NCBI GenBank assembly: GCA_025060615.1
Contig: JANXBS010000004.1
Coordinates: 108,634-172,633, forward strand
Reading direction: 5' to 3'
DNA from: Anaerolineae bacterium
GTDB taxonomy: Bacteria > Chloroflexota > Anaerolineae > DUEN01
Length of the DNA: 64,000 nucleotides
Shown in pieces: positions 24,351 to 35,681 of the stretch. A model generated the notes under the pieces. The model searched no databases. It saw nothing but the letters and a program-made list of their open reading frames with translations, and was not told the DNA's origin. Within the stretch, counting starts at the first letter, position 1; each line of letters starts with the position of its first letter. Made by a program: the position numbers and the translations under genes.

Positions 24351-24633
24351 AGAGTTCGCCTTGCAAACGAATAGACGAACGACGGTGACGGAGACGAGTA
24401 GGTCGCTGCAGTGCCCTCAGAGAGCTGCCGGATGGTGTGAGGCGGTGACACGGGCGACCGAATCCACTCCCGAGTTGTTCGCCGGAACAGCCTTCAGGCT
24501 CAGTATGGCGGACCGGCTTATCCCCGTTAACGGATGAGGTCGTCAGACCTACAAAGGCCTCGTAGCGTGAGCACGAGGTGAATCCAGGTGGCACCACGAG
24601 CGCCCCTCGTCCTGGTCGGTCGAGGGGCGTTTT
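24351..24633 (+). promoter_or_regulatory. T-box riboswitch for tRNA-Ser (specifier TCC)
   Basis: A leader of about 280 nt before serS. Stem I contains the AGTA bulge (24397-24400), an AGAGAG stretch near 24419-24424 and, opposite the bulge, GAA followed by the specifier TCC (24463-24465), a serine codon read by tRNA-Ser(GGA). The T-box core is CCAGGTGGCACCACG (24585-24599). Its TGGC can pair with GCCA, which fits the G73 discriminator of tRNA-Ser. A terminator hairpin follows at 24601-24633. Uncharged tRNA-Ser should stabilise the antiterminator and permit serS transcription. Confidence 0.92.
24601..24633 (+). terminator. T-box intrinsic terminator
   Basis: CGCCCCTC (24601-24608) pairs with GAGGGGCG (24622-24629), followed by TTTT. 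It competes with the antiterminator that contains the T-box core just upstream. Confidence 0.88.
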
Positions 24634-24676: not shown

Positions 24677-25957
24677 ATGCTAGATATCCGTTTAATTCGC
24701 GAACAGACGGCTATGGTCAAGGAGGCGATGCGTAAGCTAGGGGCGGAGGACGCGCCGATTGACCGTGTGCTGGAATTGGACGAGGAGCGACGGGCCATTT
24801 TGGCTGAGGTTGAATCGCTGCGCGCCCGTCGCAACGCCGGCAGCAAAGAGATCGGCCAGCTCATGCGCGAGGGAAGGCACGCCGAGGCGGAAGCGCTCAA
24901 AGCGGAGATGAGCGCGATCGGCCAGCGCATCCCTGAGCTGGAGGAACGCCTGCGGCAGGTAGAGGCGGAGCTGCAAGATGCCATGCTGCGCATCCCCAAC
25001 CTGCCTCATCCCAAAGTGCCAGTGGGGCGAGATGAGCGCGATAACGTCATCATCCGCACGGAAGGGGAGCTACGCCAATTTGATTTTGAGCCGTTGCCGC
25101 ACTGGGAACTGGGGCCGGCGCTGGATATCATTGACTTCGAGCGCGGGGTGAAGATCTCAGGGAGCCGCTTCTATGTGCTCAAGGGCTTAGGCGCGCGATT
25201 GCAGCGTGCGCTCATCACCTGGATGATTGACCTGCATGTCAATGAACACGGCTATACCGAGGTCTATCCACCGTTTGTGGTCAAGGCCGAATGCCTGGTG
25301 GGCACGGGCAATCTCCCCAAGTTCGGTGACAACCTGTATCATGACGTGGAAGAGGACTTTTGGCTGATCCCCACAGCCGAGGTGCCGGTGACCAACCTCC
25401 ATCGGGATGAGATCTTGCCGCCGGGGAGCCTACCCATCTACTACGTGGCCTACACGCCCTGCTGGCGTCGGGAGAAGATGTCGGCTGGGCGCGATGTGCG
25501 CGGCATCAAGCGCGGCCATCAGTTCGACAAGGTAGAAATGGTGAAATTTGTGGAACCAAGCACCTCGGACGAAGAGCTGGAAAAGCTGGTGGACAACGCC
25601 GAGGACGTATGCCGGAAGTTAGGGCTGCCTCACCGGGTGGTACAGATGTGCACCGGGGATCTGAGCTTCACTGCGGCCATGAAGTACGATATCGAGGTGT
25701 GGGCACCTGGATGTCAGGAATGGCTGGAGGTTAGCTCGTGCTCGAACTTCATGGACTTCCAGGCACGACGGGCAAACATTCGATATCGGCCGGCCCCCAA
25801 TGCCCGCCCCGAGTTCGTACACACCCTGAACGGCTCAGGGCTGGCATTGCCGCGGGTGATGATCGCCATTCTAGAGAATTACCAACAGAAGGACGGCTCG
25901 GTGGTAGTGCCAGAGGTATTACGCCCGTATATGGGCGGGGTAAAGGTGATCCGGTAG
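24677..25957 (+). CDS. serS: Serine--tRNA ligase (SerRS)
   Basis: A 426-residue class II aminoacyl-tRNA synthetase. The N-terminal long coiled-coil arm that grips tRNA-Ser covers residues about 30-105; the catalytic core follows with [23 protein letters not shown], motif 2 ([18 protein letters not shown]) and motif 3 ([20 protein letters not shown]). ATG 24677 is the start, 8 bases after GGAGGGG. The frame is open further upstream but runs through the T-box. Motif 2 has [10 protein letters not shown] instead of the common RSEAGSAGRD, a mild deviation. Expression is controlled by the T-box. Confidence 0.95.
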
Positions 25958-25988: not shown

Positions 25989-26017
25989 TTGACAGATGCC
26001 CCCAACCGTGGTATAAA
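25989..26017 (+). promoter_or_regulatory. Promoter of the arginine operon leader
   Basis: TTGACA at 25989-25994 and TATAAA at 26012-26017 with a 17-bp spacer. The transcript should begin near 26024, about 230 nt before argC. Confidence 0.8.
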
Positions 26018-26075
26018 CGAGTTACCTTCAGGCCTCGCATGGCGCTAGGCCGTTGATCTTGCAAAGGAGTTGCCT

Positions 26076-26129
26076 GTGAAAATAGCTTTGTTCGTCGCCC
26101 GTTCGCCTAGGAGCCCTAGGAGGATGTAG
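26076..26129 (+). CDS. Arginine operon leader peptide (17 codons)
   Basis: A very short open frame that reads MKIALFVARSPRSPRRM and then TAG. It starts with GTG 26076, 6 bases after AAAGGAG (26063-26069). Four of its last nine residues are arginine, three of them AGG codons (26109-26111, 26118-26120, 26121-26123), and the Arg run ends just before an RNA hairpin. The position between a consensus promoter and an intrinsic terminator ahead of argC is that of an amino-acid attenuation leader. Function is inferred from this architecture; there is no homology evidence. Confidence 0.78.
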   Translation: MKIALFVARSPRSPRRM

Positions 26130-26226
26130 CCAGACCACCAGTCTGGATAGCGGCGCGTGGGCCAGGTTCTCTCGGGCGATCATAGGCGATCTTGAAAGCG
26201 AAGCTCTCCAGACGGAGAGCTTTTTT
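26130..26226 (+). promoter_or_regulatory. Transcription attenuator of the arginine operon
   Basis: Three mutually exclusive pairings are visible. Segment 1 CCAGAC (26130-26135) pairs with segment 2 GTCTGG (26141-26146). Segment 2, extended to 26151 (GTCTGGATAGC), pairs with segment 3 GCTCTCCAGAC (26203-26213) at 10 of 11 positions. Segment 3 also forms the terminator with segment 4 (26214-26221). A ribosome stalled at the Arg codons would cover segment 1, release segment 2 and prevent the terminator. Confidence 0.75.
26202..26226 (+). terminator. Attenuator terminator before argC
   Basis: AGCTCTCC (26202-26209), loop AGAC, GGAGAGCT (26214-26221) and a T-run to 26226. It lies 30 bases before the argC start and no other gene needs it, so it is a regulated terminator. 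Confidence 0.9.
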
Positions 26227-26256
26227 ATTATCCTCAACAAAGCGAGGGCAGAGCAC

Positions 26257-27264
26257 GTGATCAGAGTCGGCATCTTCGGTGCGACGGGCTATACCGGCTA
26301 CGAGCTAGTCCAGATCCTGCTGCGGCATCCGGAGGCGAAGATCGTCTTCACCACTTCGGAGAGCACGGCTGGCGGCAAGCTGAGCGATGTGTATCCCTGT
26401 CCGTGGGATTTTCCGTTGATCAGTGCAGCCGATGCGCCGTTGGCTGATGTAGATCTCGTCTTCCTATGCTTACCCCATGCAGCCTCGATGGAGGCGGTGC
26501 GTCAGGTGCGCCAGGCCGGCGTGCGCGCCATTGACCTCTCCGCCGACTTTCGCATCGCCGACCCGGCCACCTATGAACGCTGGTACGGCACGCCGCACAC
26601 AGCTCCCGACTTGTTGCGTGAGGCCGTGTACGGGCTGGTGGAACTTCATCGAGAGCAAATTCGCGCTGCGAACCTGGTCGCCAACCCGGGGTGCTATCCT
26701 ACCAGCGTCAACTTGGGGCTATATCCATTGGCCAGAGCCGGGGTTTTGGGTCACAAGGTGATCATTGATAGTAAATCGGGGGTGTCCGGCGCGGGACGGG
26801 CGCTCAAGCTCACCTCGCACTTTGTGGAGGTCAACGAGAACCTGTCCCCCTACAGCATTGGGTACACCCACCGCCACATCGCCGAGATGGAGCAGGAGCT
26901 CAACCCGGTGAACGGCCCGTACCAGATTATCTTCTCGCCTCATCTGTTGCCGGTGAATCGTGGCATCCTCTCCACCATGTACGTCGAAGTGCCACCCGAT
27001 CTGACAGGCCAGCAGTTGCACGAGATCTACCAGGAGACATACGCCGGCGAGCCGTTCATCCACCTGCTGCCGCTAGGTCAAGTAGCTACACTCCGCCATA
27101 CCGTCGGCAGCAACCGTTGTGCGATCGGGCTGACGCCTGTGAATGGCACAGGTACCCTGATCGTCACAGCCAGTATTGATAATCTGCTCAAGGGCGCGTC
27201 CGGCCAAGCGATCCAGAACATGAACGTGATGTTCGGCCTGCCGGAGACGATGGGGTTGATCTAA
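26257..27264 (+). CDS. argC: N-acetyl-gamma-glutamyl-phosphate reductase
   Basis: A 335-residue NADPH-dependent enzyme of the acetylated arginine pathway (third step). It shows the nucleotide-binding GIFGATGYTGYELVQIL, the catalytic cysteine in VANPGCYPTSVNLGL and HRHIAEMEQEL near the substrate site. The start is GTG 26257 after GAGGG. It is the first structural gene of the run argC-argB-argD-acetyltransferase-carA and follows the attenuator. Confidence 0.95.
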   Translation: MIRVGIFGATGYTGYELVQILLRHPEAKIVFTTSESTAGGKLSDVYPCPWDFPLISAADAPLADVDLVFLCLPHAASMEAVRQVRQAGVRAIDLSADFRIADPATYERWYGTPHTAPDLLREAVYGLVELHREQIRAANLVANPGCYPTSVNLGLYPLARAGVLGHKVIIDSKSGVSGAGRALKLTSHFVEVNENLSPYSIGYTHRHIAEMEQELNPVNGPYQIIFSPHLLPVNRGILSTMYVEVPPDLTGQQLHEIYQETYAGEPFIHLLPLGQVATLRHTVGSNRCAIGLTPVNGTGTLIVTASIDNLLKGASGQAIQNMNVMFGLPETMGLI

Positions 27265-27281: not shown

Positions 27282-28058
27282 ATGGCGAAGGCTACCAGCA
27301 TCATCATCCTCAAGTTCGGTGGGAACGAGATCGACCAGCCAGGCTTTCTAGCGGCGATGGCCGAGGCGGTGATTCAACTGCGCGAGCGAGCCACCCCGGT
27401 CATCGTCCACGGCGGCGGCAAGGAAATCGCCGAGCTGCAGCAGCGGCTGGGGCTGCGGCCACAGTTCATCGACGGGCTGCGGGTGACCGATGAGGACTCG
27501 CTGGCGGTAGCGGAGATGGTGCTTTCCGGTCGCGTCAACAAGCGCGTGGTCGCCACGCTGATCCAGGCCGGCGTGCCTGCGGTAGGGCTGAGCGGCGTGG
27601 ACGGCGGGCTCCTGCGCGTTGAGCGCTTATCGCACCCGGCCGGCGACCTAGGCTGGGTAGGCGAAGTTGTGGAGGTCAACCCCATTCCGCTTCGGGCGCT
27701 GTTACACGCGGACATCGTCCCCGTGATCTCGCCTATTTCCCTAGGGCGCGACGGCCACACGTACAACGTGAACGCCGACCACGCGGCGATGGCCCTCGCA
27801 CGCGCGCTCCACGCCGATCGCCTGGCTTTCATCTCCAACGTGCCAGGAGTATTGGTGGCAGGCCAGTGCGTGCGCGCCCTGACAGCGGCCCAGGCTGAGG
27901 AGTGGATCGCTGAGAAGATCATCACCGGTGGCATGATCCCCAAGGTCCGGGCCGCGTTGGAAGCAATCCATAGCGGCGTGTCCCAGGCGTTGATCACCGA
28001 CCTGCGCGGCCTCATCTCCGACTCGGGCACGGCTTTCGTCGCCGATGCGCTGATTTGA
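27282..28058 (+). CDS. argB: Acetylglutamate kinase
   Basis: A 258-residue amino-acid kinase fold enzyme (second step of arginine synthesis). Motifs are IIILKFGGNEI, PVIVHGGGKEI (phosphate loop), GRVNKRVVATLI, NVNADHAAMALARAL and ITGGMIPKVRAAL. AGGAGG precedes the ATG, 17 bases after argC. Whether it is the arginine-inhibited hexameric form cannot be read with certainty; the N-terminal extra helix of that form is not obvious. Confidence 0.95.
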   Translation: MAKATSIIILKFGGNEIDQPGFLAAMAEAVIQLRERATPVIVHGGGKEIAELQQRLGLRPQFIDGLRVTDEDSLAVAEMVLSGRVNKRVVATLIQAGVPAVGLSGVDGGLLRVERLSHPAGDLGWVGEVVEVNPIPLRALLHADIVPVISPISLGRDGHTYNVNADHAAMALARALHADRLAFISNVPGVLVAGQCVRALTAAQAEEWIAEKIITGGMIPKVRAALEAIHSGVSQALITDLRGLISDSGTAFVADALI

Positions 28059-28073
28059 GCAGGAGCCAACCGC

Positions 28074-29267
28074 ATGGACACACAGGAAGTGATTGCCCTA
28101 GAAGGGCGGTATGTGCTCCAAACCTATCTGCGCTCGCCGTTCGTGCTCGAGCGCGGCGTCGGCTGCACACTTTATGACAGCCAAGGGCGCGCTTACCTCG
28201 ATCTGGCAGCTGGCATCGCCGTCAACGCCTTGGGCTATGGCGATCCAGAGCTGTTGCAGGCCATTCAGGCGCAAGCCGCGCGCCTGATCCACGTCAGCAA
28301 CCTGTATCACACCGAGCCGCATGTCCGCCTGGCCCAGATGCTGTGCGAGCGCTCATTCGCTGATCGGGTGTTCTTCTGCAACTCCGGCGCCGAAGCCAAC
28401 GAGGGCGCGATCAAGTTCGCCCGCAAGTGGGCGAAGGCCCGTTTCGCCGATCAGGCCGATCGCAAAGTGGAAATCGTCGCCTTCGAAGGGGCCTTTCACG
28501 GCCGCACTATAGGCACGTTGGCGCTCACGCCGCGAGAGAGATACCAAGCCCCGTTTCGACCGTTGATGCCAGGCGCGCGCATCGCTCGTTTCAACGACCT
28601 TGAATCGGCCGCCGCGGCCATCACCGACGATACCTGCGCCGTGATCGTGGAGCCAGTGCAAGGTGAAGGGGGCATCCATCCGGCCAATGCCGCGTTTTTG
28701 CAGGGGCTGCGCACACTGTGCGATCAGCACCATGCGCTGTTGATCTTCGACGAGGTACAGTGTGGGTTGGGGCGAACGGGCACGCTATGGGCGCATGAGC
28801 TCTATGGGGTCAAGCCCGACATCATGACGCTGGCCAAGCCGCTAGGTGGCGGCCTCCCCATTGGCGCGATCCTGATGACGGAAGATGTGGCCAGCGTCAT
28901 TCAGCCCGGCGATCACGGCTCGACCTTCGGCGCTAACCCAGTGGCCTGCGCTGCGGCCCAGGTGATCGTCCGCCGCGTCAGCGATCCTGCCTTTCTGGCC
29001 GAAGTGCGTGCCAAGGGGGCATATTTGATGGAACGGCTGCAGGAGATCCACAGCCCTCACATCTGCGAGATCCGCGGCCGCGGGTTGATGATCGGCGTGG
29101 AGATGGACATCCCAGTGGCGCCCATCATCCAGAGCGGCTATGAACGCGGCCTGATCATGATCAACGCTGGTGAGAGGGTCCTGCGCTTGGTACCGCCGCT
29201 GATCATCGAACGGGCCGACCTGGATCGAGCGGTAGATCACCTCTCGGCGATTTTGGAATCCTTGTAA
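28074..29267 (+). CDS. argD: Acetylornithine aminotransferase
   Basis: A 397-residue PLP-dependent class III aminotransferase. Visible are the phosphate-binding CNSGAEANEGAIKFARKW, the Asp of LLIFDEVQCGLGRTG and the catalytic Lys in IMTLAKPLGGGLPIGAIL. It converts N-acetylglutamate semialdehyde to N-acetylornithine and may also serve in lysine synthesis. GGAG precedes the ATG at 28074, 15 bases after argB. Confidence 0.94.
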   Translation: MDTQEVIALEGRYVLQTYLRSPFVLERGVGCTLYDSQGRAYLDLAAGIAVNALGYGDPELLQAIQAQAARLIHVSNLYHTEPHVRLAQMLCERSFADRVFFCNSGAEANEGAIKFARKWAKARFADQADRKVEIVAFEGAFHGRTIGTLALTPRERYQAPFRPLMPGARIARFNDLESAAAAITDDTCAVIVEPVQGEGGIHPANAAFLQGLRTLCDQHHALLIFDEVQCGLGRTGTLWAHELYGVKPDIMTLAKPLGGGLPIGAILMTEDVASVIQPGDHGSTFGANPVACAAAQVIVRRVSDPAFLAEVRAKGAYLMERLQEIHSPHICEIRGRGLMIGVEMDIPVAPIIQSGYERGLIMINAGERVLRLVPPLIIERADLDRAVDHLSAILESL

Positions 29268-29348
29268 GCGATGGCGCGTGGTCGAGTTTCACGCCGGAAC
29301 GTTTCAGACGCTACCGTTTCTAACGCAGGAAGATGGCGAGGGGAAACG

Positions 29349-29945
29349 ATGGGCGATGACAACGGCACAGATATAGTCAGCGACAACGTGATCATACGGC
29401 CGGCTCGGGCTGAGGATGTGCCGGCGATGGCCAAGCTGATCAATGGCTACGCAGCCCAGGACTTGATGCTGCCTCGCTCGGAAGAACAGCTCCTGCGCCA
29501 TCTGCCCGATTTCGTGGTAGCCGAGGCGGCAGGGCGCATTATCGGCTGTGCCGGGCTGGCTCGTCTCAGCCCAGAGTTGGCTGAGATCCGCTCGCTAGCG
29601 GTGGCCCCCGAGATGCAGGGGCGAGGGGTGGGGCGCGCGCTGGTGGGCTTCCTACTCCAGGCTGCGCGCGAAGTGGGCATCGTCCAAGTGTGTGCGCTGA
29701 CGCTGCGACCGCACTTTTTCGAAGCCCTCGGCTTTCAGGTGGTGGACCGCTGGGATATCAGCCCGAAGATTTGGCAGGAATGCATTTACTGTCCGAAATT
29801 TCACCGTTGTGACGAGATCGCCGTCCTGTTGAACCTGGAGGAGATGATGCCGGGAGAATTGCCATCATCGCATTGGGACCGTTTCCTGCAAAGCTCAGTG
29901 CCAACGGCCTGGCGGCGCAATTTCGCAACAGTGGTGAGGAAGTGA
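29349..29945 (+). CDS. GNAT N-acetyltransferase, short ArgA-like (N-acetylglutamate synthase)
   Basis: A 198-residue GNAT protein. The acetyl-CoA loop is [20 protein letters not shown]. The C-terminal [38 protein letters not shown], with three Cys, is the pattern of the stand-alone ArgA type known from actinobacteria. It would make N-acetylglutamate, the entry compound of the pathway. The frame is open from 29271, but ATG 29349 with GAGGGG upstream gives the normal N-terminus. It is placed between argD and carA, and no argJ or argE is in the run. Confidence 0.75.
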
Positions 29946-29950
29946 ACCCT

Positions 29951-31093
29951 ATGAGCGGACTGCTTGCTTTGGAAGACGGGACAGTGTTCGAAGGTGAAGG
30001 GTTCGGCGCTAGGGCGACGGTAGTCGGCGAAGTCGTGTTCAATACTTCGATGACCGGCTATCAGGAGATCCTGACCGATCCCTCCTATTATGGCCAGATG
30101 GTGGTGATGACCGTTTCCCATGTCGGCAACGTGGGCGTGAACTCGGAGGATGTGGAAAGCCTGCGGCCACAGGTACAGGCTTTCATTGTGCGCGAGGTTA
30201 GCCCGGTGGTCTCTAATTGGCGCGCCAGGGAGTCACTGCCGACCTATCTGGCGCGCTACGGCATCCCCGGCCTAAGTGAGGTGGATACGCGCGCCCTTAC
30301 CCGACATATCCGGGAGCGCGGCGCGATGAAAGCCGCCCTTAGCACCGATGGCGCGTCTCCAGATGAGCTGATCGAGATGGCCAGGGCCTGGGAGGGGTTG
30401 GAGGGGCGCGATGTAGTGCGCGCGGTCACCTGTGCCGAGCCATATCACTGGATCGAGGGAGGGATTCGGCAGTTTCAGCCCCATCGCTTTCGCCCGGCCG
30501 AATCGCATCCGTTCCATGTGGTCGCCTATGACTTCGGCGTCAAGCACAACATCCTGCGCCGACTGGTAGACCACGGCTGCCGAGTGACCGTGGTGCCCGC
30601 CGATACGCCCGCCGAGGATGTGCTGGCGCTGTCCCCCGATGGCATCTTCCTATCCAACGGACCGGGAGATCCCGCCGGCATACCTTACGCAGTGGCGGCC
30701 GTGGCGAAACTGCTGCAAACCGGCCTGCCTATGTTTGGCATCTGCTTGGGGCACCAGCTTCTAGGCCTGGCGTTAGGCGGGCGCACCTATAAGCTCAAGT
30801 TCGGCCACCACGGCGGTAACCAGCCTGTGCGGGATGAGGCCACGGGCATCGTCCAGATCACTGCACAGAACCACAACTACGCTGTGGACCCTGATAGCCT
30901 GGACCCTAGCCAGGTGGAGATCACCCACTGGAACTTGAACGATGGGACGGTCGAGGGAATGCGCTTGAAAGACCGCCCCGTCTTTTCTGTCCAATATCAT
31001 CCGGAGGCGAGCCCAGGGCCCCACGATGCGGATTACCTGTTCGGTCGCTTTGTGGAGCTGATGCGCAGGCAGCGAAGTAAAAAAGAGGGATAG
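29951..31093 (+). CDS. carA: Carbamoyl-phosphate synthase small subunit
   Basis: A 380-residue glutamine amidotransferase subunit. The N-terminal CPSase_sm domain starts [19 protein letters not shown] and the C-terminal class I amidotransferase domain carries [14 protein letters not shown], the nucleophile in [17 protein letters not shown] and the His-Glu pair in [23 protein letters not shown] 29951 follows GAGGAAG, 5 bases after the acetyltransferase stop; the longer frame from 29873 overlaps that gene. It supplies ammonia to CarB for carbamoyl phosphate. Confidence 0.95.
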
Positions 31094-31099
31094 GACGAC

Positions 31100-31119
31100 A
31101 AGGCAACGAGGGCCTTTTT
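31100..31119 (+). terminator. Weak hairpin with T-run after carA
   Basis: AAGGC pairs with GCCTT across a 7-nt loop, followed by T residues. The 5-bp stem makes termination uncertain; it may only reduce read-through into hom. Confidence 0.3.
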
Positions 31120-31161
31120 ACCCATCACCCTGTCGCCTTATCTCTTGAGCAGGGAGTCGAG

Positions 31162-32247
31162 ATGGCTCAAGTGATACGCGTTGCTCTGGTGGGTCTAGGA
31201 AACGTCGGGCGAGCGTTCCTGGAACTAATGAGAACCAAGCGATGGGTTTTGCGCGAGCGTTACGGCTTGGAGTTGGTGCTGACCGGCGCAGCTGATTCCA
31301 CCGGCGCAGCGTTGGGTGCCGGGCAAATCGACCCTGCCAACTTATTGCGGCATAAACAGGCGGGACACGGCGCTGGGCAATATCCCCGGCTGGGACACCG
31401 CGGCATGCCGGCAACGGAGATGGTGCGCCAGGTTGAGGCAGATGTGTTGCTGGAAGCCTCGCCGGTCAACGTTCGCACCGGCCAGCCGGGACTAGACTGC
31501 GTGCGCATCGCCCTGCAACGCGGGATGTCGGTGATCCTGGCCAACAAAGGGCCGCTAGTAGTGGCGTATCGGGAATTGATGGATCTAGCAGTCCCACTCC
31601 AGTCCTCCTCCGTTTCAACTGGAAACGAAGGAGGATGGCCGAAGGCCGAGTGGAGGCCTCAACGCCTCCGTTTCTCCGCCACGGTGTGTGGCGCGCTGCC
31701 GGTGCTCAACATGGGACAGCGTGACCTGGTCGCCTGCGAGATCCAGCGGATTGAAGGAATTCTTAACTCGACCACCAACTACATCCTCACCGCAATGGAG
31801 GCTGGCGACAGCTTCGACCAGGCGCTACGGCAGGCGCAAGCTGAGGGGGTGGCCGAGAGCGATCCCTCGCTGGACATCCAGGGTTGGGACACAGCCAACA
31901 AGCTGGTGATTATCGCCAATGCCGTGCTGGGGGTACCGATCACGCTGAAAGACGTGGACATGCTGGGCATTCAGTATATCACCCCGGACGACCTGGCCGC
32001 TGCGCGGGCGCGCGGGCAGACGGTGAAGCTAGTGGCCGTAGCGCAAAGGCAAGATGGCAGTTATCGCTTCTCCGTTCACCCGGCTGCGCTCCCTTTAAGC
32101 CACCCGCTGGCCTCCATCACCGGTTGGGAAATGGGGATCGTCTGGCATACCGACATCATGGGGACCCAGTTCGCCAAGGTGGACGAGCGCGGCCCGATGC
32201 CTACCGCAGCGGCCATGCTGCGCGACTTGATCAATTTATATCGCTAA
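31162..32247 (+). CDS. hom: Homoserine dehydrogenase with an in-frame palindromic insertion
   Basis: A 361-residue NAD(P)-dependent enzyme of threonine and methionine synthesis, of the short type without an ACT domain. Marks are VALVGLGNVGRAFLEL, VILANKGPLV, ATVCGALPVLN, IEGILNSTTNYIL, AEGVAESDPSLDIQGWDTANKLVI and the catalytic Lys there. Between YRELMDLA and RLRFSAT there are about 25 extra, low-complexity residues (SSSVSTGNEGGWPKAEWRPQ), encoded by a palindromic element at 31600-31677. GGGAG precedes the ATG. Its position between carA and carB is unusual. Confidence 0.9.
   Translation: MAQVIRVALVGLGNVGRAFLELMRTKRWVLRERYGLELVLTGAADSTGAALGAGQIDPANLLRHKQAGHGAGQYPRLGHRGMPATEMVRQVEADVLLEASPVNVRTGQPGLDCVRIALQRGMSVILANKGPLVVAYRELMDLAVPLQSSSVSTGNEGGWPKAEWRPQRLRFSATVCGALPVLNMGQRDLVACEIQRIEGILNSTTNYILTAMEAGDSFDQALRQAQAEGVAESDPSLDIQGWDTANKLVIIANAVLGVPITLKDVDMLGIQYITPDDLAAARARGQTVKLVAVAQRQDGSYRFSVHPAALPLSHPLASITGWEMGIVWHTDIMGTQFAKVDERGPMPTAAAMLRDLINLYR
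31600..31677. repeat. Palindromic element inserted in frame in hom
   Basis: CCTCCTCCGTTTC (31604-31616) pairs with 31622-31634 at 12 of 13 positions around a 5-nt loop. GGCC-GAA-GGCC and GGAGGC-n6-GCCTCC follow, then CCTCCGTTTC again. The element adds about 25 residues without a stop. Confidence 0.75.
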
Positions 32248-32369
32248 AGGTTCAGAGGCAGGCAAGAGCTCCTACATGAGTGCAGCTCAGGAGACAACCT
32301 AGGCCCCAAGGACAGATAAAAGGACAAAGACCTTGTTGTGATGGATTCAGAAAGGGTAGGTGTTCCCAT

Positions 32370-35300
32370 ATGCCGAAACGGACTGACATTCACTCGATTC
32401 TGGTGATTGGCTCTGGACCGATCGTCATCGGCCAGGCGTGCGAGTTCGACTACTCCGGCACGCAGGCGGTCAAAGCGCTTAAGCGTGAGGGCTACCGCGT
32501 GATATTGGTCAATTCCAACCCAGCGACGATCATGACCGATCCAGAGCTGGCCGACGCCACCTATGTAGAGCCGTTGACACCGGAGATCGTCGAGAAGATC
32601 ATCGAGCGAGAGCGCCCCGATGCCCTGTTGCCCACGGTGGGTGGCCAGACGGGACTAAACCTGGGCGTGATGTTGGCCGAAAGTGGTGTGCTCGAACGGT
32701 ACGGCGTGCAATTGATCGGCGCATCCCTGCGGGCAGTGAAGCTGGCCGAGGACCGGCTGCTCTTTAAGGAGGCGATGCTCAACGCTGGATTGGAAGTGCC
32801 GCGCAGCGGCTTGGCACGTTCTCTAGAGGAAGCTTGGGCTATTGCTGCTGAGATCGGAAGTTATCCTTTACTCATTCGACCTTCATTTACGCTAGGGGGC
32901 ACGGGTGGCGGCATCGCCTTCGGCCCTGATGACTTCGCCGAGAAGGTGCTCTTCGGCCTGCGCGAGAGCCCCGTTCACTCGGTGTTGATCGAAGAGTCGG
33001 TGTTAGGCTGGAAGGAATTCGAGTTAGAGGTGATGCGCGATCGCAACGACAATTTCGTGGTCGTCTGCTCCATCGAGAACCTCGACCCAATGGGCGTGCA
33101 TACGGGCGATTCGATCACTGTAGCGCCGGCGCAGACCCTGACCGACAAGGAATATCAGCGCCTGCGCGACCAGGCTCGCGCCGTGATGAGCGCGGTCGGC
33201 GTGGAGACAGGAGGATCAAATGTGCAATTCGCGATCAACCCGGCTGATGGCCGCATCTTGGTGATCGAGATGAACCCGCGCGTCTCCCGCTCTTCGGCGC
33301 TGGCGTCGAAGGCCACCGGTTTCCCCATCGCCAAGATCGCTGCGCTGCTGGCCGTGGGCTACACGCTGGACGAGATCAAGAACGACATCACTCGGGTGAC
33401 GGTAGCCGCTTTCGAACCGAGCATTGACTACGTGGTGGTGAAGATCCCGCGCTGGGCGTTCGAGAAGTTCCCCGGCGTGGATCCTACGCTGGGACCGCAG
33501 ATGAAATCAGTGGGTGAGGTGATGGCTATCGGTCGCACATTCAAGGAGGCTTTGCAAAAGGGCCTCCGTTCGCTGGAGATCGGACGCAGGGGATTCGGTG
33601 GCCTGTCCCCTCACCCTCAACCCTCAACTTCCTCTCTCCTTCAAGCTTGGGAGGGGGGTGAGGAAAGAGCGATTGAACGCCTGCGCTACCTGCTCTCCGT
33701 CCCCACCCGCGATCGTCTCTTCGCCGTGCACGACGCGCTGGCTGCCGGCTGGCCCCATGAGGAGATCTGCCGGCTCACCGGCTTCGACCCGTGGTTTGTG
33801 GCGCAGATGGCACAGCTGGTGGAGTTCGAGCGCGAGCTGTCCCGCTATACGCTGGAAAGCATTCCGGCCCCTGTGCTGCGCAAGGCCAAGCGTTGGGGCT
33901 TCAGCGACGAACAAATCGGCGAGCTGTTACGATGGGAAGCCGATCCGCCGAGCTTGCATCAGCGGGGGTTGTTAGTGCGTGAAAAGCGTAAGGAGTTGGG
34001 AATTAAGCCCACTTACCTGCGCGTGGACACCTGCGCCGCCGAATTCGAGGCCTTCACGCCATACCTCTACAGCACTTACGAAACCCAGGATGAAGCTGCG
34101 CCGACCGACCGTCCTAAGGTCATGATCTTGGGCGGCGGCCCCAACCGCATCGGTCAAGGGATTGAGTTCGACTACTGCTGCGTGCACGCCTGTTGGGCAC
34201 TACGCGATCTGGGCTACGAGACCATCATGGTCAACTGCAACCCGGAGACGGTTAGCACCGACTACGATACGTCCGATCGTCTTTACTTCGAGCCGCTGAC
34301 CTTCGAGGATGTGCTCAACATCGTCGAGATGGAACGCCCGGTGGGGGTCATCGTCCAGTTCGGGGGGCAAACGCCACTGAACTTGGTCAATCGCTTGCAT
34401 AAGGCCGGAGTCCCCATCTGGGGCACCAGCCCCGATGCGATTGATCTGGCAGAGGACCGCGGTCGCTTCGGCGCGCTGTTGGCCGAATTGGACATCCCAC
34501 AGCCGGCCAACGGCACGGCCACCAGTCTGGCCGAGGCCAAACGCGTCGCTCGCCAGATCGGCTATCCTGTGCTGGTGAGGCCTTCGTATGTACTGGGAGG
34601 ACGGGCTATGGCGATCTGCTACGACGAGGTAGCGCTGGAGCGATACGTGACCGAGGCCGTGGCTGTATCCGAAGGGCATCCGATCCTGATTGACCAGTAT
34701 GTAGAAGATGCCTATGAGGTGGATGTGGATGCCGTGTGCGACGGCGAGCGGGTGGTCATCGGCGGCATCATGCAACACATTGAAGAAGCCGGTGTGCATT
34801 CGGGTGACTCGGCCTGCGTGTTGCCTCCGTATAAGATCAGCTATTTCCATCTCAACACGATTCGCGAGTACACCGAGCGGCTAGGGTTGGCACTTAAGGT
34901 GCGCGGGCTGATGAACGTCCAATTCGCCATCAAGGACGATATCGTCTACGTGCTAGAGATGAACCCGCGCGCCTCTCGCACGGTTCCCTTCGTCTCCAAG
35001 GCGACCGGGGTGCCGCTGGCGCGCCTCGCGGCCCAGGTGATGGCTGGGAAGACATTGGCGGAGCTGGGCTTCACGGAGGAACCAAGGGTTGACGGCTTCT
35101 TCGTGAAGGAGGCTGTGCTGCCTTTCAAGAAGTTGCCGGGATCCGACGCGCTGTTGGGGCCGGAGATGCGTTCCACCGGCGAGGTGATGGGGCATGCCTC
35201 TCACTTCGGACATGCCTTCGCCAAAGCGGAGATGGGCGCCGGCGACTCGCTGCCGCTTCAAGGGACGGTGCTGATCTCCGTCAACGATTACGACAAGGGG

Positions 35301-35681
35301 AGCGCGCTCAAGATCGCTCGTGACTTGCACCGCCTAGGATTCCGCATTCTGGCGACTAGGGGCACCGCGGCCTTTCTAGCAGGCGCTGGGTTGCCAGTAA
35401 AAGCCGTCAACAAAGTCAGCGAAGGTTCGCCCCATGTCGTGGACTTGATCAAGCGAGGCGAGATCCACCTCATCATCAACACGCCCTTAGGCCGTGATGC
35501 CTACGATGACGGGGTTCAGATCCGCCAAGCGGCTGTGCGCCACAGCATCCCCCTGCTGACGACCCTTTCGGCCGCCGCTGCAGCCGTGCAAGGGATCCGC
35601 GCCCTGCGGGAGCGCGAGCTGCGTGTCCGTAGCTTGCAAGAACATCATCGGCTTCAGAGCGTTCCATTGCGCTCTAGCTAG
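32370..35681 (+). CDS. carB: Carbamoyl-phosphate synthase large subunit
   Basis: A 1103-residue enzyme with the full CarB order: ATP-grasp 1 ([25 protein letters not shown]), oligomerisation domain, ATP-grasp 2 ([24 protein letters not shown]) and the C-terminal MGS-like allosteric domain ([25 protein letters not shown]). Residues about 412-433 ([20 protein letters not shown]) are an extra low-complexity segment encoded by a hairpin-forming repeat at the junction of the first synthetase domain and the oligomerisation domain. The start is ATG 32370. Translation of the frame upstream to 32280 is not CarB-like. Serves arginine and pyrimidine synthesis. Confidence 0.95.
33604..33668. repeat. Hairpin repeat inserted in frame in carB
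   Basis: CCTCACCC (33609-33616) pairs with GGGTGAGG (33656-33663), and an inner CTCTCC/GGGAGG stem lies between them. It resembles the CCCTCACCC...GGGTGAGG type of intergenic repeat common in many bacterial genomes, here read through as coding sequence. Confidence 0.7.

Follow-up and report, generated by a model that had tools for sequence, protein, structure and literature searches.

The argC gene of an Anaerolineae bacterium is preceded by a leader that, judged from its sequence and from those of relatives, is very probably a ribosome-mediated transcription attenuator of the trp/his type, through which the operon would sense charged tRNA-Arg. The window, that is, the whole stretch of DNA analyzed, comprised 64,000 nt of assembly GCA_025060615.1 (contig JANXBS010000004.1, positions 108,634 to 172,633, forward strand). 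An earlier note on this DNA had proposed the same trp/his-type logic, and its elements, namely the frame, the Arg codons and the 1:2, 2:3 and 3:4 pairings, were found to be conserved or coevolving in relatives. Because the evidence from a single locus is modest, the attenuator reading became decisive only with these relatives.

Anatomy of the argC Leader and Its Operon

The following features were located, with positions counted from the first nucleotide of the window.

25989-26017, plus strand: sigma-70-type promoter, read directly; TTGACA (25989-25994), 17-nt spacer, TATAAA (26012-26017)
26063-26069, plus strand: Shine-Dalgarno sequence AAAGGAG, 6 nt ahead of the leader start
26076-26129, plus strand: leader peptide frame of 17 codons, GTG (26076) to UAG, with Arg codons at 26100, 26109, 26118 and 26121
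26127-26129, plus strand: premature UAG, CAG in sisters L003 and L004 (codon-by-codon comparison)
26130-26135, plus strand: segment 1, CCAGAC
26130-26150, plus strand: remainder of the probable ancestral frame, PDHQSG and then UAG (26148-26150) inside segment 2 (translation and sister comparison)
26141-26151, plus strand: segment 2, GTCTGGATAGC, partner of segment 1 or segment 3
26203-26213, plus strand: segment 3, GCTCTCCAGAC, forming the antiterminator with segment 2 and lying within the 5′ arm and loop of the terminator
26200-26231, plus strand: intrinsic terminator, stem 26200-26209/26214-26223, then a U-tract
26257-27264, plus strand: argC, GTG start at 26257 (TIGR01850, 401 bits)
27282-35681, plus strand: argB, argD, an argA-like N-acetyltransferase gene, carA, homoserine dehydrogenase (hom) and carB

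The promoter, the ribosome binding site and the 17-codon frame with four Arg codons claimed in the earlier note were all present to the base, and the leader peptide of the window reads V/M KIALFVARSPRSPRRM. A promoter scan passed over 25989-26017 because position 6 of the -10 element is A; a promoter in a comparable position was seen by eye in relatives. CCAGAC (26130-26135), a CACCA loop and GTCTGG (26141-26146) make up the 1:2 hairpin. The placement of this hairpin directly after the frame, as first described, holds in the window but not as a rule, since the frames of most relatives run through segment 1. After a spacer of 51 nt, segment 3 offers segment 2 an alternative partner, and the proposed 11-bp pairing with one mismatch was recovered as 10 of 11 pairs between 26141-26151 and 26203-26213. 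The terminator was found too, and its limits, earlier given as 26202-26226, were corrected to a stem of 26200-26223 plus the U-tract. The operon argC-argB-argD-argA-like-carA-hom-carB thus consists of genes that suit an arginine signal. A loosely conserved motif, approximately TAGnTGCGCnTGGGCC, occurs 3′ of segment 2 (26148-26170) in many members and may contribute to a predicted long-range helix.

Occurrence of the Leader in Relatives

Relatives were located through ArgC and their upstream DNA was read, the leaders being counted by eye and not by a tool. An Arg-rich leader frame with a terminator preceded argC in 32 of the 38 loci of the window's class that had enough sequence; L011, in which the contig end cuts the upstream region, was left out of this count. 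Among the remaining loci, L006, L010 and L115 had the stems with an Arg-poor or broken frame, and no leader was seen by eye in L007, L012 and L031. Outside the class, the leader was found before argC in all eight loci fetched from family f92, in both loci of f66, and in the named f92 loci L047 (Roseiflexaceae) and L048 (Kouleothrix), and was not seen before argC in families f56 and f95. Scanning another 42 argC loci, almost all of them from other phyla, yielded no leader that was accepted; the Arg-rich matches recognized there were C-terminal ends of ribosomal protein S9. Separately, L147 of family f121, outside the main groups, carries a possible Arg leader, MGEARSFCPLRRRVRRGGGGL, before argC.

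The architecture was common to the relatives despite diverged stems, peptides and Arg codons. The comparison of argC upstream regions that the earlier note had suggested therefore bore it out in the main: the Arg-rich frame was kept as Arg, and the 2-3 and 3-4 pairings were kept with changed sequence. Relatives did not retain the terminator while losing the Arg codons and segments 1-3; the 2-3 pairing was maintained, whereas the 1-2 pairing was kept more weakly.

Arginine Enrichment in the Leader Frames

An amino-acid-blind scan compared seven codons from each of 44 leaders with dinucleotide shuffles. As a mean, 3.70 of the seven codons encoded Arg versus 1.70 in the shuffles, and at least three did so in 41 of the 44 leaders; this enrichment statistic, like those on coevolution, treats the leaders as separate, and they are not statistically independent. 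Gly was a weak second (1.89 versus 1.07), and no further amino acid stood out. Arginine was kept while its codons drifted: AGG is used in the window and its sisters, CGT or CGC in most leaders and CGA in some. AGG makes up only 6% of the Arg codons in eight neighboring genes. The AGGAGG run was considered as a Shine-Dalgarno-like element and ruled out, because other lineages have CGN codons at the same place.

Coevolving Pairings and Modeled Ribosomes

In the window alone, the 2:3 duplex (p=0.04), the 1:2 hairpin (p=0.03) and the fold of the whole leader (z -2.0) departed modestly from chance. Across 52 loci, the 2:3 duplex was significantly better than shuffles (p<0.05) in 29. In 39 of 42 leaders, the segment 2 region paired more strongly with the segment 3 of its own leader than, on average, with those of other leaders, and after removal of row and column effects the own fit prevailed in 36 of 38 (p ≤ 5e-5 by permutation, leaders again taken as separate), indicating that segments 2 and 3 coevolve. 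The 3:4 pairing likewise reached -22.1 kcal/mol with its own partner versus -11.0 kcal/mol with foreign ones, and the 1:2 pairing exceeded shuffles in 31 of 38. The window RNA, truncated ahead of segment 4, folded into 2:3 in the absence of segment 1, whereas 1:2 formed when segment 1 was present. Once the whole terminator was made, the minimum-energy fold was still the terminator even with segment 2 free; antitermination would therefore have to be kinetic.

Ribosomes were then modeled on 42 leaders whose frames were curated by eye, and the nucleotides of the segment 3 region paired upstream were counted. The median was 10.7 nt for a stall at the first Arg codon, 9.4 nt at the last, and 2.9 nt for a ribosome at the stop codon. 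In 40 of the 42 leaders, upstream pairing was greater with a stall at Arg than with a ribosome at the stop, and in 37 the contrast rose above shuffled controls. When the RNA from the stall site to the terminator was shuffled, the stall-minus-stop difference fell from 7.9 to 4.2, and that between the stalled and the ribosome-free state from 5.1 to 1.1. In the model, the leaders as a group fit a geometry in which a ribosome at the Arg codons masks segment 1 and one at the stop blocks segment 2. The window copy fails the stop half of this geometry: 10.9 nt of its segment 3 region were paired with a stalled ribosome, 9.7 nt with a ribosome at the stop and 2.1 nt with no ribosome. Its stall-versus-stop contrast was no better than shuffles, whereas its stall-versus-free contrast beat all 25.

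The Early Stop Codon of the Window Copy

A ribosome at the window's stop leaves segment 2 free because the UAG precedes segment 1. Over 25 positions, the window matched sisters L003 and L004 codon by codon, with codon 18 being TAG in the window versus CAG in both sisters, and all three keep the in-frame UAG within segment 2 (26148-26150). Furthermore, 37 of the 42 curated leaders end their frames within segment 2 or downstream of it. Since the sisters carry CAG at codon 18 and most leaders stop later, the 17-codon frame, although real in the sequence, is either derived or an error.

This raises the alternative, confined to the window copy and not extending to the leader class, that the copy is decaying and weakly regulated through the early UAG, or that the UAG is a sequence error. 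The sister codons, the retained old stop and the modeled failure of a ribosome at the early stop to block segment 2 speak for it, as does L115, which likewise has an in-frame UAG, upstream of its Arg codons, where its close relative L024 has CAG. Set against this, the promoter, ribosome binding site, four Arg codons and stems 1-4 of the window are intact, and a few other leaders also stop ahead of segment 2 (L015, L017, L027 and L030) or, in the Lys leaders L301-L303, within the 1:2 loop. We consider decay or error unlikely, and the window copy may well work as an attenuator despite its early stop.

Regulators, Riboswitches and the Long-Range Helix

Neither of the usual controls of arginine genes named in the earlier note, ArgR and the T-box, was found for this leader. 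ArgR (PF01316) was found in none of 60 genomes, i.e., the own genome and 59 relatives, versus 9 of 14 control genomes; in the phylum it occurred in 69 of 301 genomes, none of them in a family where the leader was found. Rfam, at gathering and relaxed thresholds, gave no significant match at the argC leader, including none for the T-box (RF00230); among known leader families, Phe_leader scored 19.8 bits against a cut-off of 55. T-boxes were nevertheless present elsewhere:

24376-24617: T-box leader before serS (Rfam, 110 bits)

The serS T-box and the argC leader would thus be two different tRNA-charging sensors in adjacent transcription units. In family f61, the peptide leader is replaced before argC: L174 has a T-box there (69 bits, E 2e-14, below the Rfam cut-off of 93) and L171 a T-box-like sequence in the same place.

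Folding also predicted a long-range helix that encloses the 1:2 hairpin together with the Arg codons.

26070-26100, plus strand: predicted 5′ strand, UUGCCUGUG (26070-26078) and GUCGCCC (26094-26100); fold, p=0.005 in the window
26174-26189, plus strand: predicted 3′ strand, GGGCGAU and CAUAGGCGA, in the 2-3 spacer; fold

Coevolution linked the beginning of the frame to the 2-3 spacer in 29 of 38 leaders (p ≤ 5e-5 by permutation, with leaders treated as separate), and the helix was individually significant in 12 of 42. It was not seen in sister L003 and is therefore a tendency, not a rule. It would be expected to favor termination in the absence of a ribosome.

Such an extra conserved spacer and helix are superfluous for classical attenuation and would suit a leader bound by a regulator protein, or a riboswitch for arginine itself, with the frame incidental. 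We regard this as very improbable, given the relatives without ArgR, the absence of an Rfam family above cut-off at the leader, and the little sequence conservation, only the frame, the Arg codons and the complementarity being kept. The same RNA cassette was, moreover, found with Lys or Pro codons before Lys and Pro genes; this links the specificity to the codons.

The Same Device before Other Genes

The same device preceded argG in about six genomes (L194, L195, L196, L207, L208 and L209), where Arg accounts for two to five of seven codons. No leaders were seen before argF or argH, the argH set having been read in part. Lys and Pro leaders were found by searching for the stems alone, and one of them lies in the own genome:

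G000:C21:12232-12299, minus strand: L285, leader with Lys codons, VNQRFALLVDKRSKAGKPDQRSG, carrying the same stem cassette

As in most Arg leaders, its frame runs through segment 1. L285 and the Lys leaders L289, L301-L303 and L305 precede a homocitrate synthase-like gene, and another (L308) precedes an ATP-grasp gene. Pro-rich leaders with the same cassette occurred in L286, L287, L290 and L299, before proS in L286, L290 and L299. The homocitrate synthase and proS fragments are partial and score below the NCBIfam cut-offs, those families being the best match; proS of L299 was recognized by eye from its similarity to the other proS loci. Pro-rich leaders of the same kind were also observed before metallophosphoesterase or LOG-like genes (L243, L291 and L297).

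We lean slightly toward the view that the class employs a single modular cassette, CCAGAC - GTCTGGATAG - CTCCAGAC, whose in-frame translation is PD..SG plus stop and in which the upstream codons have been exchanged to give sensors of Arg (argC, argG), Lys (homocitrate synthase) or Pro (proS), with the long-range helix between the frame start and the 2-3 spacer as an addition, and that in these lineages the cassette takes the place of repressors like ArgR.

Proposed Mechanism

The least probable explanation holds that the hairpin alone is functional, as a 3′ terminator of the upstream serS unit or as an insulator, and that an Arg-rich frame arose by chance because the DNA is rich in G+C. In its favor, serS lies on the same strand and ends at 25957, some 240 nt upstream, and Arg codons abound in DNA of this kind (1.70 of 7 as the null mean). 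It conflicts, however, with the near-consensus promoter between serS and the leader, with Arg enrichment and 2:3 coevolution above chance, and with L032, L040, L044 and L053, in which the recognizable upstream neighbor reads away from argC and the terminator therefore acts on the argC leader transcript.

Under ribosome-mediated attenuation, RNA polymerase would start near 26024 and a ribosome would begin the leader peptide. With Arg-tRNA scarce, this ribosome would stall at the Arg cluster with its footprint over segment 1; segment 2 would then pair with segment 3 once the latter is made, no terminator would form, and the operon would be transcribed. With ample Arg-tRNA, the ribosome would enter segment 2 in relatives, whereas in the window it would be released and 1:2 would re-form. 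Either way, segment 3 would be left free for segment 4 and transcription would end ahead of argC.

Comparison with Known Systems

The argC leader resembles the enterobacterial trp and his attenuators in its short frame, clustered codons of the pathway amino acid, 1:2/2:3/3:4 pairings and intrinsic terminator before the first gene, and differs from them in its Arg codons, its occurrence in Chloroflexota and its association with argC and argG. It shows the hallmarks of this type that can be judged from sequence, apart from the stop-codon half of the geometry in the window copy. A Lys leader-peptide attenuator of the lysine cluster of Thermus thermophilus is said to have been described by Tsubouchi et al. 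in 2005. It would be a case of leader-peptide attenuation outside Proteobacteria and before the same kind of gene as the Lys leaders found here, differing in being for lysine and in Thermus; we know of no arginine counterpart. Arginine T-box leaders likewise respond to the charging of tRNA-Arg and work through a terminator, but they bind the tRNA directly, without a leader peptide. The fungal arginine attenuator peptide of arg-2/CPA1 is an upstream peptide controlling arginine synthesis; unlike the argC leader, it works through eukaryotic translational arrest by arginine itself, without a transcription terminator.

To our knowledge, bacterial arginine synthesis is held to be under ArgR or T-boxes. 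A 2005 survey of Actinobacteria placed arginine under T-boxes only (PMC1262725), and a 2010 survey stated that, before its own Firmicutes case, leader-peptide systems were found only in Proteobacteria and Actinobacteria (PMC2965389). A search of openly readable papers found no arginine attenuator ahead of arginine biosynthesis genes. Thus, the class of mechanism is known; its use for sensing arginine, and in Chloroflexota, is new within the readable literature. One phylum would hold three alternative arginine controls, i.e., leader peptide, T-box and ArgR, so that the replacement of regulators becomes traceable, and codon exchange within one RNA cassette suggests how attenuators gain new amino acids. 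The speF leader of Salmonella (orf34/speFL) also carries consecutive Arg codons, and its translation at low or high arginine sets the RNA fold (PMC6386406); unlike the argC leader, it serves ornithine decarboxylase through Rho termination and RNase G-dependent stability, with no intrinsic terminator before arginine biosynthesis (PMC6386406).
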